Shown here: positions 206 to 5,438 of the stretch, piece after piece
How the letters are laid out: each line of letters begins with the position of its first letter
How positions within the stretch are numbered: the stretch's first letter is position 1
NCBI GenBank assembly: GCA_003248845.1
Contig: QFPD01000165.1
Span: 1-5,438, forward strand
Length of the DNA stretch: 5,438 nucleotides
Origin: Microbacterium sp.
Lineage (GTDB): Bacteria > Actinomycetota > Actinomycetes > Actinomycetales > Microbacteriaceae
Direction of reading: 5' to 3'
Program-made: the position numbers and the translations under genes
The notes under the pieces: model-generated
Seen by the model: only the letters and a program-made list of their open reading frames with translations
Database searches by the model: none
What the model was told of the DNA's origin: nothing

Positions 206-523
206 TCAGGAGTTCATCATCGAGCCGAGGCCCGTGATCGTGGACACCGTCGACTCCTCCAGGGCGCTCTTGTCGGCCTGCGTGCCGCGCAGCGCATCCT
301 CGAGGTCGATGAGGACCTTGTTGAGCTTCGTGGTCTCGTCGTCCCAGCGCCGCATCAGCGAGTCGAACGCGGTTCCCGCGGGCCCCGTCCAAAACTGGCG
401 CGCCTGCTCGAGCTCGCCCCGCACGAACGAGATGCGCCCGTCGATACCGGCCTTCGCTTCGTTCACGGCATCTGCGCCCTTGAGCAGCGCCCCCTCGAGT
501 GCGCCGATCTTCTGAGTCGTCAC
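206..523 (-). CDS. WXG100 family T7SS secreted protein (W-T-G motif)
   Basis: A 105-residue protein from the preferred GTG start. It has an N-terminal helix (about residues 5-42), the WXG turn as W45-T46-G47 within RQFWTGPAGTAFDSL, a second Trp at residue 60 and a second helix with many charged residues (about 52-85), then a Ser/Gly-rich tail ending GLGSMMNS. This is the family's normal architecture and length. It probably pairs with the adjacent W-D-G protein and leaves the cell through the ESX channel; that is inference from the family and the tandem arrangement. No YxxxD/E motif is visible in its tail, so the partner may supply the export signal. A longer frame opens at ATG 568 and would add 15 residues, but would move the Trp to residue 60 and give 120 residues, atypical for the family. 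The GTG at 521-523 has a strong GGAGGA site four bases upstream. The family is secure; the start is moderately sure. Confidence 0.9.
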   Translation of the reverse strand: MTTQKIGALEGALLKGADAVNEAKAGIDGRISFVRGELEQARQFWTGPAGTAFDSLMRRWDDETTKLNKVLIDLEDALRGTQADKSALEESTVSTITGLGSMMNS

Positions 524-527
524 AACA

Positions 528-533
528 TCCTCC
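528..533 (-). promoter_or_regulatory. Ribosome binding site favouring the GTG start of the WXG100 gene
   Basis: GGAGGA on the minus strand, four bases before GTG 523-521. It lies inside the longer reading frame from ATG 568 and is the main reason to prefer the shorter protein. The ATG has a competing but weaker GGAG six bases upstream. Confidence 0.55.
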
Positions 534-588
534 AACGTGTCCAGAGACGTGGTCTCGGGACGCGGCATCCGCCGCTCCCCGACGTCCC

Positions 589-640: not shown

Positions 641-658
641 GATGAGAAATCTCTCATC
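641..658 (-). repeat. Perfect 7-bp inverted repeat (hairpin) over the espC-like stop codon
   Basis: GATGAGA (641-647) and TCTCATC (652-658) are perfect inverted arms with a 4-base loop. The stop codon of the espC-like gene (656-654) lies in one arm. A second, weaker potential stem (AAGGG 622-626 with CCCTT 632-636) follows in the transcript. There is no U-run, so this is not a textbook intrinsic terminator. It could be a partial terminator, a 3' mRNA stabiliser or an operator. No function is assigned. Confidence 0.45.
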
Positions 659-971
659 CGAAGTCGGAGTTCAGCGCGGAGATCGCCGCGACCGCAGAAT
701 CCTCGAAAGCCGCCATGTCGGTGCCGATGCCGCGGACTTCGATCGCGCTGCGACGCACCATGCCCTCGGCAGACGAGATCGCGTTGCCCGCGATCGTCGC
801 CGCCACGGTCGCCGGAGCGACGAGGAACGAGCACAGCACACCGAATGCCCCGCCGCCCATATTCGTGGAGGCGGCGGCGTCGCGCGCGACCTTGATGTCG
901 GATGCCACCTGCTCCACCCGTGCGGCGTGCGAAACGATGAGGTCGTGGTCGATCGCGATGCGCTCAGCCAT
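654..971 (-). CDS. EspC-family type VII secretion target
   Basis: A 105-residue protein resembling the ESX-1 EspC family (Pfam T7SS_ESX_EspC, formerly DUF2580), recalled by pattern rather than search. It opens with MAERIAIDHD, then an amphipathic helix LIVSHAARVEQVASDIKVAR (residues 11-30), a Gly-rich turn (39-41), the family-like AFGVLCSFL (42-50), a small-residue hydrophobic helix (51-66) and a C-terminal helix (about 78-100). It lacks a WXG motif but has the same helix-turn-helix size, and proteins of this family are co-secreted by ESX systems. The start ATG overlaps the upstream stop as TGATG, and GGGGAGG (minus strand, 987-981) lies nine bases upstream inside the previous gene, so translation is probably coupled. 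The hydrophobic stretch at 42-66 is unusually long for a soluble protein and may be a dimer interface. It could be another small T7SS substrate type. Confidence 0.75.
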   Translation of the reverse strand: MAERIAIDHDLIVSHAARVEQVASDIKVARDAAASTNMGGGAFGVLCSFLVAPATVAATIAGNAISSAEGMVRRSAIEVRGIGTDMAAFEDSAVAAISALNSDFG

Positions 972-1393
972 CAGCGCTGCCCTCCCCGATCGCCGGAGAT
1001 CTCGTCGGCGTCGCTCGGCGGCACGCGGTCGACCTCCGCGCGCAGGTGCGCGACGACCGACGACTCCTCGCCGAAGGCATCCGCAGCGATCTGGAGCGCC
1101 TGCTCACCGGCTCGGCGCTGCGCGGCGTTCGCCGTCGCGACGATCAAGGCGCCGAGCTCGCGCGGCTCGAGATCGTAGGCGGCGTCGGCGATCTCGACGG
1201 CGGAGAGGCGGCCCGCGGCATCCACCGTGACCGAGAGCTCGCGGCGCGGCGCCGTCGCGGTGCCGCGGATGGCCTGGATATCCGCCTGCATCGACTGGGC
1301 CTTCGCGGCAGTCGCCTGTGCGTCGGCGATCTGCTGCTGCACGCGGGCGATGGCGAGGTCGGCGTCGAGGTCCGCGGAGAAGAAATCGCTCAC
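971..1393 (-). CDS. YbaB/EbfC-family protein, EspL-like
   Basis: A 140-residue protein with an N-terminal coiled-coil-like helix rich in Gln and Ala (residues 12-42), then a YbaB/EbfC core: R43-G44, the strand pair ELSVTVDAAGRLSAVEIAD (52-70) and a long C-terminal helix, LGALIVATANAAQRRAGEQAL (80-100). A charged, probably disordered tail (118-140) extends past the usual fold. YbaB proteins bind DNA or act as nucleoid-associated factors. In mycobacterial ESX-1 the YbaB-like EspL stabilises secreted Esp proteins, and its pairing here with an EspC-like gene points the same way. Whether this protein binds DNA, regulates the locus or chaperones the substrates cannot be told from sequence. The GTG start lies seven bases after a TACGCT -10-like element and has no ribosome site, which suggests a leaderless mRNA. 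It shares one base with the next gene. Confidence 0.8.
   Translation of the reverse strand: MSDFFSADLDADLAIARVQQQIADAQATAAKAQSMQADIQAIRGTATAPRRELSVTVDAAGRLSAVEIADAAYDLEPRELGALIVATANAAQRRAGEQALQIAADAFGEESSVVAHLRAEVDRVPPSDADEISGDRGGQR
981..987 (-). promoter_or_regulatory. Ribosome binding site of the espC-like gene
   Basis: GGGGAGG on the minus strand, nine bases before the ATG at 971 and within the last codons of the YbaB-like gene. It supports the TGATG-overlap start. Confidence 0.6.
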
Positions 1394-1486: not shown

Positions 1487-1495
1487 ATGCGCACC

Positions 1496-2836
1496 GTGAG
1501 CCAGACCGTCAGCGCCTCCCGCGCTTTGGTGCGCGTGTCCGTGCAGTCCGAGGGCAGGCGCCTCGACATCGGGATCCCCGGGCAGCTCCCCCTCGTCGAG
1601 CTCATGCCGGGTTTCGCGCGTAGCCTCGGCGTCCTCGACGCGACGATGACGCACGCGGGTTACACGCTCGAGCGCGCGGACGGCACGGCGCTCGACACCT
1701 CGCGCGGCGCGATCGAACAGGGTGTGCGCGAAGGCGACCTGCTGACCCTCTCGCGCGGCGGCCTGCTCGCGCAGCCGCGCGTCTACGACGACATCGTCGA
1801 AGCCGTGCTGGATGCCACGGCGGAGCAGCACCGCCCGTGGACCCCGCAGGACAACGCCCGCACCGCACTCGCCGCGAGCCTCACCCTGCTCGGCATCTGC
1901 GCCGTGCTCCTCGTCGCCGCCGGCCCCTCGCTCGGCGTCGGCGCGTTCGTCGCGGGCGGCGGCGCGATCGTCCTCCTCGCCGTCGCCGCCGCGGTCGGAC
2001 GGCTCGGCCAGGCCGAGGCGGGCCAGGGCCTCGCGCTCGCGGCCGCCGTCTTCGGCGGGGTCGCGGGCTACCTCGCCGTGCCCGCCGGTTCCGCGCTCTG
2101 GGGGTGGCCGCTGGCCGCCGCCGGTCTCGGCGCCGCGATCGTGGGGGCTGCCGCGCTCGCCCTCACTCCCCAGCGACCCGAGTACCAGCTGATCCCGATC
2201 GCGGTGGGTGGGGCCGTCGGCGTCATGGCTCTGTTCGCCGCGCTCTTCCCCGGCGCCGCCGTCGCCTCCTACGCGCTGGGGATCGCCATCGTCGTGACCG
2301 TCGGCAACGGGCTTCCGTGGCTCGCGATGAGCTCCACTCGGATCCGCGTGATCTCTCCGCAGAGCGACGCCGACGTGTTCGCCGCCCCCACGCCGATCGA
2401 TGCGGATGACGTCCGCGCCCGCGCGGCGGCGGGACACCGCATCCTTCTCTCCGTCCGCATCGCGACCGGCATCGCCGCCCTCGCGGCGACGCCTATCGTG
2501 GCGGGGGCGAATGCCGCGGGCGCGGCCCTGTGCGCGCTCGCCTTCGTCGGGATGATGTTCCCGTCGCGGCAGAGCTTCGCGCGCAGCAACGTCCTCGCGC
2601 TTCTCTCCCTCGGCACCCTCGGGCTCGCGGCGACGGGCGTGACCGTCTCCCTCGCGCAGCCCGAGCTGCGCGTGCCGCTGCTGATCGTCCTCATCGCCGT
2701 GACCGCGATCGTCGTCACCGTGACCCTGCTCGCACCGCGCGCCCGGGCCCGTCTCGGTCGCCTCGCCGATACGGCGGAGGTCGTGACCATCGCTCTGCTG
2801 CTGCCGCTGGGCGTCATCGCCGCCGGCTGGGCCTGA
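1496..2836 (+). CDS. eccD: T7SS integral membrane protein EccD
   Basis: A 446-residue membrane subunit of the ESX inner-membrane complex, in which EccD dimers form much of the membrane-embedded part around EccB, EccC and EccE. Residues 8-86 form a ubiquitin-like cytoplasmic domain (LVRVSVQSEGRRLDI, then LPLVELMPGFARSLG, ending GDLLTLSRGG). A linker (87-121) leads to 11 predicted membrane segments: about 123-142, 146-168, 179-195, 201-223, 232-251, 254-277, 318-337, 340-355, 364-383, 391-412 and 426-444. The family's loop after segment 6 is visible as LPWLAMSSTRIRV (273-285), followed by a charged cytoplasmic stretch to about 315. Length is slightly below the mycobacterial 450-510. It is first in the rightward operon; eccB starts 5 bp after its stop. 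The GTG start is preferred on ribosome-site spacing; ATG 1487 would add three residues (MRT). Confidence 0.95.
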   Translation: MSQTVSASRALVRVSVQSEGRRLDIGIPGQLPLVELMPGFARSLGVLDATMTHAGYTLERADGTALDTSRGAIEQGVREGDLLTLSRGGLLAQPRVYDDIVEAVLDATAEQHRPWTPQDNARTALAASLTLLGICAVLLVAAGPSLGVGAFVAGGGAIVLLAVAAAVGRLGQAEAGQGLALAAAVFGGVAGYLAVPAGSALWGWPLAAAGLGAAIVGAAALALTPQRPEYQLIPIAVGGAVGVMALFAALFPGAAVASYALGIAIVVTVGNGLPWLAMSSTRIRVISPQSDADVFAAPTPIDADDVRARAAAGHRILLSVRIATGIAALAATPIVAGANAAGAALCALAFVGMMFPSRQSFARSNVLALLSLGTLGLAATGVTVSLAQPELRVPLLIVLIAVTAIVVTVTLLAPRARARLGRLADTAEVVTIALLLPLGVIAAGWA

Positions 2837-2841
2837 CCTCC

Positions 2842-4167
2842 ATGGCGACCAAGAACGACCTGATCGAGGCGCAGAGCTTCTCGCGCCGACGCCTGCTGAC
2901 GGCGTTCGTCAGCGGCGCCCCCGGCGGCAAGGAGCTCGAACCCGCGGCTCCTCTGCGCGCGGTCTTCACGGCGATCGCGCTCGCCGCCGCCGTGATCCTC
3001 GTCGGCGTGTTCTGGGGGATCATCAGCCCAGGACTCCCCAAGGGATGGGACAACGGACGCCTCGTGCTCGTCTCGGACACGGGCGCCCGCTACGTCACGA
3101 TCGACGGCAAGCTCCACCCCGTCATCAACACCGCGAGCGCGCGCCTCTTGATTCCCTCGGACGACTTCGCCATCATCACGACCGACCAGCAGACACTCTC
3201 GGGCATCGCGCTCGCCTCTCCGCTCGGCATCGTCGGCGCACCCGACGCACTGCCGACGCCGAGCGGTCTCGTGGACGACGGGTGGACCGCCTGTGTCGCG
3301 GGTTCGGGCGTCGACGTGCGCATCGGCGCGGATGCCGCGGCCACGGCATCCACCGGCGCCGCCGTCGTGTCGTCGGAGGGGCGCCTGTACGTCGTCGCGG
3401 CGGGCCAGCGGTTCGAGGTGACCGCGAAGCAGAGCGATGCGGTTCTCCGCGCCGTCGGCCTCGGCGCCGTGGACCCCACCCCGGTGTCGGCACCCTGGTT
3501 GAACCTCTTCACGCCGGGGACGACCCTCGCGCCCCTCACGATCTCTGGCGCGGGTTCTCCGCTCGACGGCACCGACCTCACGGCGGGTCAGGTCGTGCAC
3601 ATCGACGGCAACGCCGCCGACGAGCTGTTCGTGGTCCGCGAGGGCCGCACGCTCTCGCCCCTCACGCCGCTCGCGTGGCAGCTCTATCAGCTCGGCAGCG
3701 GCCTCGGTGCCGACGCGGTCCTCAACGTCACTGCGGCGCAGGTCGCGGGCCTGCCCACCGGCGACCCCGTGGGGAGCGCCGACTGGCCGAAAGATGCGTT
3801 CACCCCCCTGGCCGATGACACCCGGCCGTGCGCTCTGCTCGTTCGCGACGGGGACGGGGCCCGCACGACGCTCGCCGAGCAGCCGACGGATGCCGAGGCA
3901 TCCGCGGGGGTGCGTGTGGAGGCGGGGCACGGCGCCCTCGTCCGTGCCGGCGGCCGTGGCACGCAGGCGGCGTCGCTGCTCACACTCATCGATGCCACGG
4001 GCACCGCGTACGCCCTGCCCGGCGCGACCGCCGAGACCGTCAAGCGCCTCGGGTACACGACCGGGGACATCGGCACAGCGGATCAGGCATGGATCGCGCT
4101 CCTGCGCACCGGGCCCGCGCTCACGGAGGAGGCCGCCGGACAGACCCCCTCCGGCGGTGGCGGATGA
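2842..4167 (+). CDS. eccB: T7SS core component EccB
   Basis: A 441-residue bitopic component of the ESX membrane complex. The N-terminus MATKNDLIEAQSFSRRRLL and the following AFVSGAPGG are the hallmark of EccB: a cytoplasmic segment of about 40 residues, then one membrane helix (about 40-62), then a large extracytoplasmic domain. That domain shows repeat-like units typical of the family, such as LVLVSDTGARYVTID (75-89), RLYVVAAGQRFEVTA (181-195), ELFVVREGRTLSPL (261-274) and LLTLIDATGTAYALPG (379-394). C151 (DGWTACV) and C330 (TRPCALLV) are its only cysteines and sit where EccB proteins carry the disulfide linking the core. Family members have been reported as ATP-hydrolysing, but I see no Walker motif. 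The tail ends in GGGG. There is no clear ribosome site; the start is 5 bp after the eccD stop, so coupled translation is likely. A longer in-frame reading from 2530 overlaps eccD and is rejected. Confidence 0.96.
   Translation: MATKNDLIEAQSFSRRRLLTAFVSGAPGGKELEPAAPLRAVFTAIALAAAVILVGVFWGIISPGLPKGWDNGRLVLVSDTGARYVTIDGKLHPVINTASARLLIPSDDFAIITTDQQTLSGIALASPLGIVGAPDALPTPSGLVDDGWTACVAGSGVDVRIGADAAATASTGAAVVSSEGRLYVVAAGQRFEVTAKQSDAVLRAVGLGAVDPTPVSAPWLNLFTPGTTLAPLTISGAGSPLDGTDLTAGQVVHIDGNAADELFVVREGRTLSPLTPLAWQLYQLGSGLGADAVLNVTAAQVAGLPTGDPVGSADWPKDAFTPLADDTRPCALLVRDGDGARTTLAEQPTDAEASAGVRVEAGHGALVRAGGRGTQAASLLTLIDATGTAYALPGATAETVKRLGYTTGDIGTADQAWIALLRTGPALTEEAAGQTPSGGGG
3330..3351. repeat. 8-bp inverted repeat inside eccB built from GGATGCC/GGCATCC
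   Basis: GGATGCCG (3330-3337) and CGGCATCC (3344-3351) are perfect inverted arms with a 6-base spacer. Both arms are copies of a heptamer that recurs through the window. It is coding sequence for a DAAATAS stretch of EccB, so it may simply result from codon choice. Confidence 0.5.
3887..3904. repeat. 18-bp near-palindrome inside eccB built from GGATGCC/GGCATCC
   Basis: CGGATGCC (3887-3894) and GGCATCCG (3897-3904) are perfect 8-bp inverted arms with only GA between them. It encodes TDAEASA of EccB. Symmetry this tight looks like a protein-binding site, but the same dicodons recur singly elsewhere and no function is known. Confidence 0.5.
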
Positions 4168-5438
4168 GACGCGCGGGCGCTGCGGCGCTCGTCGTGTCCG
4201 CCCTGCTGGGCGCGGCGCTGGCGCTCGCCCCGGGCGGTGTCGCTGCCGCGACCGGGGCGACCGCGGCGCGGGAGGTGCCGTCCGCGCTCTCCTCCGAGGA
4301 ATGCACCGCATCGACGTGGATCTCCGACGCGCCATCGGCGTTCCGCATGCTGCAGAGCGAGAACGCGTGGACCCGCTCGCGCGGATCGAAGATCGTCGTC
4401 GCGGTCGTCGACTCGGGCGTCGCGGCGACGGGCCCCCACTTCACCGACGCTCTGGTCGCCGGAGCGGACCTCGTCGGTGACGGCGCCGGCGCGACCACCG
4501 ACCTCGACGGGCACGGCACGGCGCTCGCCGGTCAGATCGCCGCCCGGAGCGTACCGAAGTCGGGCGTCGTCGGTCTCGCTCCGCGCGCACAGATCATGCC
4601 CGTGCGGGTGTACGCCGGGACGTCCGAAGCGCACGTGCAGGCGGGCATCGGTCCGCGCGCGGATCGCGTCGCGCAGGGCATCCGATACGCCGCCGACCAC
4701 GGTGCGCGCATCATCCTCGTCGGGATCACGACCGACGCACCGGACGCCGCGCTGACGGATGCCGTCGCGGCGGCGACCGCCCAGGGGAGCCTCGTCATCG
4801 CCAGCGCGGGCAGCCGCGCGCACGAGCTGTCCATCGACCAGAACGAGGACGACGGCGCGCGGTACCCCGCCGGAGCACCCGGTGCCCTCGGGGTCGCGGC
4901 GACCGACGCCGACGGCGTCGTGACAGCCGCCAGCATCCAGGGGCCGCACGTGAGCCTCAGTGCGCCCGGCTCCGATATCTTGACGGCCTCGGCAGCCGGC
5001 GCCGACTGTCGTTTCGCGACCGATCCGAGTCCCGCGTTCGCTGCCGCCTACGTCGCGGCGGCCGCCGCCCTCGTCGCCGCCGCCCACCCGGGTGAATCGC
5101 CCGCGCAGTGGGCGTACCGCCTCGAGGCCACGGCGGTGCGCGCCGACCCCGACAGTCGTGACGATGCGAGCGGGTGGGGCCTCGTGCAGCCGTACGACGC
5201 GATGATCCTGGTGCCGGGCGCGGGTGTGCGCGGGCCGGACAGCCCGTTCCCGTCCGAGGCATCCGTCGCCCCCGTCTCTCCGTCGGCATCGCCGGCGGTC
5301 GTCGAGCACCGGGACCCGGCGAACGGCACCGCGCTCGTGCTGGGCGTGTTGGGCGGCGTCGCTGCGGCGGTGGTGTTGGGCGTCGCGGGCACGGTCGGGG
5401 TGTTCCGACGGCGGAGGGCGGAGCCGACGGCGCCGGAG
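4164..5438 (+). CDS. mycP: Mycosin-like S8 (subtilisin-fold) protein, probably catalytically inactive; 3' end cut
   Basis: A 425-residue fragment with no stop before the right edge, but almost complete by family layout. A signal peptide (about residues 1-28, basic MRRAG then a hydrophobic core) precedes the subtilisin-fold domain (about 65-345), a Pro/Ser-rich linker (352-385) and a C-terminal membrane helix (about 389-414) followed by RRRR. Mycosins are membrane-anchored extracytoplasmic proteins of ESX systems; one cleaves the substrate EspB, and they also stabilise the membrane complex. The Asp motif IVVAVVDSGV (D83) and His motif DLDGHGTALAG (H117) are intact. The serine motif, normally GTSfAaPyVAG, reads SPAFAAAYVAA, placing Ala291 (GCG, 5034-5036) at the nucleophile. 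The oxyanion Asn of AAGN is Ser217 (IASAGS), and the usual INxS strand reads VGITTD. This looks like a pseudoprotease. Cys47 and Cys282 may form a disulfide. Start ATG overlaps the eccB stop (ATGA), implying coupled translation. Confidence 0.93.
   Translation, partial: MRRAGAAALVVSALLGAALALAPGGVAAATGATAAREVPSALSSEECTASTWISDAPSAFRMLQSENAWTRSRGSKIVVAVVDSGVAATGPHFTDALVAGADLVGDGAGATTDLDGHGTALAGQIAARSVPKSGVVGLAPRAQIMPVRVYAGTSEAHVQAGIGPRADRVAQGIRYAADHGARIILVGITTDAPDAALTDAVAAATAQGSLVIASAGSRAHELSIDQNEDDGARYPAGAPGALGVAATDADGVVTAASIQGPHVSLSAPGSDILTASAAGADCRFATDPSPAFAAAYVAAAAALVAAAHPGESPAQWAYRLEATAVRADPDSRDDASGWGLVQPYDAMILVPGAGVRGPDSPFPSEASVAPVSPSASPAVVEHRDPANGTALVLGVLGGVAAAVVLGVAGTVGVFRRRRAEPTAPE

Follow-up and report, generated by a model that had tools for sequence, protein, structure and literature searches.

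We analysed a window of 5,438 nucleotides from Microbacterium sp. (contig QFPD01000165.1) that, judged by its gene content, is a type VII secretion locus, with minus-strand genes at positions 206-1393 followed by plus-strand eccD, eccB and mycP. The gene mycP encodes a mycosin, i.e., a subtilase of the type VII secretion machinery, in which the nucleophile Ser is replaced by Ala (S291A) and the oxyanion Asn by Ser (N217S). This protein is a real, rare and derived pseudoprotease, and represents a variant of a known component instead of a new kind of system. Peptide cleavage is predicted to be lost; what remains is probably a structural subunit by which the EccB/EccD membrane complex is capped and held together.

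The window protein (P0001) was aligned with the best 120 of 536 homologues. The column of the nucleophile, which holds A291, contains Ser in 116 of the 121 rows, Ala in three and Gly in two, while the oxyanion column, occupied by S217, contains Asn in 117 rows, Ser in three and Asp in one. Both replacements had been proposed in an earlier sequence-only reading of this DNA and are borne out by the alignment. Measured against an active S8 protease, the window protein thus has no full Asp-His-Ser triad and no oxyanion Asn, and peptide cutting is predicted to be lost. Of the landmarks named in the same reading, the following are in place, as judged from the alignment, the sequence and the helices of a predicted model: D83, H117, a signal-like N-terminus (helix 9-17) and a C-terminal anchor (helix 388-419). 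A subtilisin-type protease domain is present, and the predicted model matches the folds of MycP1 and MycP3. Moreover, a profile alignment to MycP3 (4kg7) places its DTGV, DGHGT, AAGN and GTSYAAAYVSG motifs on the same blocks. With 220.7 bits, the window mycosin stays below the TIGR03921 cut-off of 278.75, as do its intact relatives P0004 (236.3) and P0012 (250.4); its genomic context is that of a mycosin, since it adjoins eccB and eccD, both of which score above their curated cut-offs.

The altered INxS strand had been put forward as a third block that drifted independently. We indeed observed N185L, S187G and S189T in this strand; position 185, however, is variable also among mycosins with an intact triad, so that S189T, affecting a residue invariant in all 116 intact rows, is the only sound sign in this block. 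Given that intact mycosins vary there, we do not take the INxS change to indicate inactivity, and with the nucleophile lost the three blocks no longer count as separate lines of evidence. As a side observation, ATS and not the subtilase GTS precedes the Ser helix in most of the intact Microbacterium mycosins among the homologues.

Activity might have been kept or regained through another residue, either Ser289 or Ser217 together with H117, as both D83 and H117 are retained and these two serines are close to the site in the primary sequence. We consider this very unlikely: neither serine falls into the nucleophile column, and the oxyanion Asn as well as the invariant S189 are gone. A shifted nucleophile at Ser289, which lies two residues ahead of the nucleophile position and had already been judged a poor substitute, is ruled out by the homologue alignment and the MycP3 profile alignment.

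The loss is shared by the closest relatives. P0002, a full-length protein, is 98% identical to the window mycosin and carries S217 and A291 (it stands for 64 sequences clustered at 90%, the representative's sequence being the one that was read); P0003, from a metagenome-assembled genome (MAG), is 82% identical and carries the same two residues. An intact motif starts with the next relative, at 63% identity. An assembly or sequencing error had to be considered given the short length of the record, and position 291 had been singled out for such a check. With identical replacements in P0002 and P0003, which stem from other assemblies, this explanation is ruled out and its probability is close to nil. 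In a tree of 68 rows, calculated with the catalytic columns included, the window protein, P0002 and P0003 form a clade (support 100/100) with the intact P0004 as sister (98/90). As this sister is intact, the loss in the window clade is derived.

A second pair of metagenomic proteins, P0005 and P0011, falls into a separate clade (97/89) that has the intact P0010 as sister (100/94) and is known from protein sequences alone. P0005 carries S291G and N217D, and P0011 carries S291G and H117N. Like the window protein, both have thus lost the nucleophile together with a further catalytic residue; unlike it, they hold Gly instead of Ala at the nucleophile position. The minimum number of changes between the intact and the lost state on the tree is two, and the catalytic chemistry, as predicted from these residues, is lost at least twice and independently in this sample. 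A protein search with P0011 retrieved no member of this second clade nearer than P0005 among the best 120 of 744 matches, and the ten new proteins from this search were all intact.

The protease-dead state is rare among mycosins. Our genus survey covered 366 genomes, of which 83 contain a full mycosin. D-H-N-S is kept in 82 of them, the sole exception being the genome (G001) that harbors L001, the nearest of three loci in the species collection, which derives from a MAG named Microbacterium sp. and shows 82% identity. This census left out L003 (Propionibacteriaceae), L034, L035 and the fragment G188, counted duplicates once (L001 = L004; L002 = L069; L109 = G192, already counted), and took matches weaker than G188 (E from 5e-25, approximately 33-40% identity) as other subtilases, unread. 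In the family survey, 26 of 398 genomes matched at E up to 1e-50, and all 24 that remained after removal of G001 and one genome already counted were intact. The class survey yielded matches at the same threshold in 215 of 394 genomes, 89 of them above the family cut-off. Here, 90 out of 90 loci read were intact and above the cut-off, in a sample biased towards high scores, as it combines 30 matches that came with loci and 60 picked from the list, not at random and in part from the same genome.

We then asked how far the gene remains constrained. The ratio of nonsynonymous to synonymous substitution rates (dN/dS) of mycP between the window and L001 is 0.202 (bootstrap 0.149-0.274). The 116 intact homologues share 46 invariant columns, 43 of which are kept in the window protein, with three lost through S189T, N217S and S291A, i.e., catalytic residues are lost and the fold stays under purifying selection, as expected of a pseudoenzyme. 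In P0005, N217D and S291G are the only losses from these columns, and in P0011 H117N and S291G. Of the 42 invariant columns outside the catalytic four, P0001 deviates at S189 only, and P0005 and P0011 match all of them. When each intact row was left out in turn as a control, 12 residues invariant in the other rows proved to be missing, spread over seven of the 116 rows; catalytic residues were not among them. With the threshold lowered to at least 90% conservation (123 columns), the window clade departs at eight, five of which belong to the blocks of the strand, the oxyanion residue and the Ser. By these residue comparisons, the losses of invariant residues are confined to the active site. The differences between P0001 and P0003 amount to 2 of 34 residues in the anchor region, 43 of 308 at positions 43-350, and 22 within the first 42 residues.

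If mycP were a pseudogene at an early stage, in a secretion locus undergoing decay, with catalysis lost first and the rest to follow, this would account for the residue changes in several active-site blocks and for the pace of mycP relative to eccB (see below). We nevertheless consider this improbable. The frame is open in all three clade members, dN/dS of about 0.20 is well under 1, and both replacements have stayed unchanged since the split of the window and L001 lineages at a dS of about 0.49. The protease core has a dN/dS of 0.163, which is not exceptional: of 29 disjoint control pairs nine are at least as high, as are 64% of all 255 pairs, these controls being intact mycosins of which many are far more diverged than the window and L001; among the listed disjoint pairs with a core identity of at least 0.8 (n = 22), two are as high. 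Furthermore, 43 of the 46 invariant columns are kept, the anchor region is almost unchanged, and eccB, eccD and EccC are intact, EccC having been read in the relative's genome G001, where it lies approximately 14 kb from mycP and exceeds both half-model cut-offs (868.9 vs 509.15 and 807.7 vs 346.55).

Several points weigh against a retained structural role. The dN/dS of mycP lies well above the values of eccB (0.075) and eccD (0.056), and dN of the mycP core divided by that of eccB gives 2.41, a value reached by none of the 29 disjoint pairs and by only 2 of the 255, which would also fit slow erosion. The invariance test is partly circular, as the four catalytic columns were fixed by the way the intact rows had been chosen, and the eight departures of the window clade are not unusual given a median of two and a maximum of 12 among intact rows. 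The clade comprises three sequences only. EccC and the other proteases were read in the relative's genome, the window ending before the position at which the upstream protease described below would lie. With D83 and H117 kept, very weak residual hydrolysis is conceivable. Selection on mycP thus looks relaxed, but it persists. The earlier proposal of retained function instead of decay holds insofar as purifying selection continues; it needs qualification in that constraint looks relaxed, with mycP outpacing eccB more than it does in the controls, and in that a structural function is inferred.

Work on mycobacteria offers a frame for such a function. Secretion continues with MycP1 S354A, with the oxyanion-hole mutant N239Y and with MycP5 S461A, and the MycP1 mutants secrete more (PMC5082899, PMC5156307). 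In the ESX-5 structure, the MycP5 trimer caps the EccB5 chamber with its active sites facing the lumen and stabilizes the complex (PMC8131196). These three papers agree with the earlier statement that mycosins have a role without proteolysis. The window protein resembles these laboratory mutants in being a type VII mycosin with the nucleophile Ser changed to Ala or the oxyanion Asn lost; it differs in that a single protein naturally carries changes at both positions, shared within a lineage and under purifying selection. In contrast to N239Y, the Asn became Ser and not Tyr, and S189 is changed as well, N239 being equated with column 217 through its stated function and not by alignment. We favor the structural-subunit reading because the window protein is naturally changed at both positions that the laboratory mutants change singly. 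By analogy to mycobacteria, the mycosin would bind EccB and stabilize the membrane complex without proteolysis. The loss would be tolerable since catalysis appears dispensable for secretion, and perhaps also since other mycosin-like proteases with an intact triad remain, one of them just upstream. EccB binding, lack of activity and a secretion function are what we infer for the window protein.

The protein shares the fold, the eccB-mycP operon, the signal-like N-terminus and the C-terminal membrane helix with canonical mycosins (TIGR03921; MycP1 4j94, MycP3 4kg7, MycP5 7np7), and departs from them by lacking the catalytic Ser and oxyanion Asn and by scoring below the NCBIfam cut-off, the latter also true of the intact P0004 and P0012. 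A search with phmmer of the C-terminal 125 residues against solved structures gave no match, so that the tryptophan through which MycP5 contacts EccB could not be placed. Like eukaryotic iRhom pseudoproteases, the window protein is a protease relative without catalytic residues that would keep a non-catalytic role; iRhoms, however, are related to rhomboid intramembrane proteases and belong to another fold and pathway. In the open-access literature, with subscription journals and preprints outside our scope, our searches turned up no description of a mycosin that is catalytically dead by nature, nor any paper combining 'mycosin' with 'pseudoprotease'. That a mycosin is essential for type VII secretion and its protease activity is not was shown by active-site mutants. 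A lineage without the catalytic residues in which the gene is kept, plus a second independent case, is natural evidence that a structural role by itself can suffice to maintain the gene, and both cases offer material for testing which mycosin surfaces matter. The interest of the case lies in this natural support for a scaffold role and in a possible split of scaffold and cutter.

Such a split would mean that mycP acts as a pure scaffold and another mycosin-like protease cuts the secreted proteins. Four S8 matches were found in G001: the pseudo-mycosin, P0122, the frame at C6:182827-183729 and a long secreted subtilase frame of more than 1,000 residues. P0122, a second and distant mycosin-like protease (type B), is located 4.9 kb upstream of the L001 mycP in divergent orientation and keeps D65, H102, N199 and S263; a BLASTP comparison with P0003 gave no alignment. 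In an alignment of P0122 with 120 relatives (the best 120 of 283), 118 of the 121 rows keep all four catalytic residues, the exceptions being P0160, P0242 and the truncated P0214. Type B proteases were found at E up to 1e-30 in 70 of the 366 genus genomes, 65 of them within the 83 that carry mycP. In 55 of these 65, a copy occurs on the mycP contig at a distance of no more than 10 kb; it is located upstream in every case, 2.9-7.6 kb away, with 39 copies in divergent orientation and 16 on the strand of mycP. Together with a neighbor of P0122 in L001 that carries a TNT domain, this could suggest that type VII loci of Microbacterium work with two proteases, an EccB-bound mycosin as scaffold and the upstream type B protease as the most probable cutter, and that the scaffold dropped catalysis in two lineages independently. 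If true, this would be the first natural separation of two functions that have been split only by mutation in mycobacterial genetics. We regard the idea as tentative and rather doubtful. Most genomes with an intact mycP carry type B as well, and mycP is intact in 82 of 83, so that the presence of type B permits the loss rather than explains it. In the remaining 10 of the 65 genomes the type B copy is farther away or on another contig. The C6 protease, moreover, is a rival cutter: it is intact in the D, H, N and GTS blocks (read by eye), has a C-terminal hydrophobic anchor, lies on another contig, away from the secretion operon, and scores higher on the mycosin model than the relative's mycP (228.6 vs 223.8) and P0122. 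The search for a second active mycosin, suggested earlier, thus turned up, in the relative's genome, two anchored mycosin-like proteases whose triads are intact, all of these matches remaining below the TIGR03921 cut-off.

Some observations on these proteases stand apart. P0160 (D to G, H to Q, N to D) and P0242 (D to G) are type B proteases with catalytic losses that keep the Ser, and P0217, with 643 residues, is an unusual fusion that has precomputed PF08887 and PF08906 matches beside its subtilase domain. The weaker matches of the genus survey, present in most genomes, may be relatives of the C6 protease. The TNT-domain protein (L001:1108-2421, minus strand; C-terminal PF14021, 67.2 bits) is likely a type VII effector, and its TNT domain is presumably an NAD glycohydrolase-type toxin.

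Table 1 Features of the window and of the relative's genome (positions refer to the window unless a locus or contig is given)
Feature	Position	Strand	Evidence
WXG100-type secretion substrate	206..568	-	PF06013 36.6 bits (cut-off 27.3); TIGR03930 41.6 bits, slightly below cut-off 44.85
Small WXG-like protein, without family match	654..971	-	86% identical in L001
YbaB/EbfC-like protein	971..1393	-	PF02575 43.4 bits
eccD	1487..2836	+	TIGR03920 114.3 bits (cut-off 94.95)
eccB	2839..4167	+	TIGR03919 179.8 bits (cut-off 154)
mycP, mycosin-type subtilase with S291A and N217S	4164..5438	+	3' end beyond window
Codon of D83 (GAC), catalytic Asp, kept	4410..4412	+	Alignment and codon reading
Codon of H117 (CAC), catalytic His, kept	4512..4514	+	Alignment and codon reading
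Substrate-binding strand residues 185-189, LVGIT (intact relatives mainly NVSMS or NVSLS)	4716..4730	+	Alignment
Codon of S217 (AGC), Ser in place of oxyanion Asn	4812..4814	+	Alignment and codon reading
Codon of A291 (GCG), Ala in place of nucleophile Ser	5034..5036	+	Alignment and codon reading
C-terminal membrane anchor helix, residues 388-419	5325..5420	+	Predicted model helix; hydrophobic stretch, then arginines
P0122, second distant mycosin-like S8 protease (type B), 421 residues	L001:3869-5134	-	PF00082 88.4 bits; TIGR03921 95.5 bits
Third mycosin-like anchored protease	G001:C6:182827-183729 (L125:172-2061)	+	TIGR03921 228.6 bits, below cut-off 278.75

The mycP start codon overlaps the stop codon of eccB (ATGA), and its frame stays open without a stop for 425 codons up to the window edge, beyond which the gene continues; the full-length homologues P0002 and P0003 comprise 445 and 447 residues, respectively. 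The two small WXG-like genes have diverged unequally from their L001 counterparts, with the gene at 654-971 showing 86% and that at 206-568 showing 97% identity.

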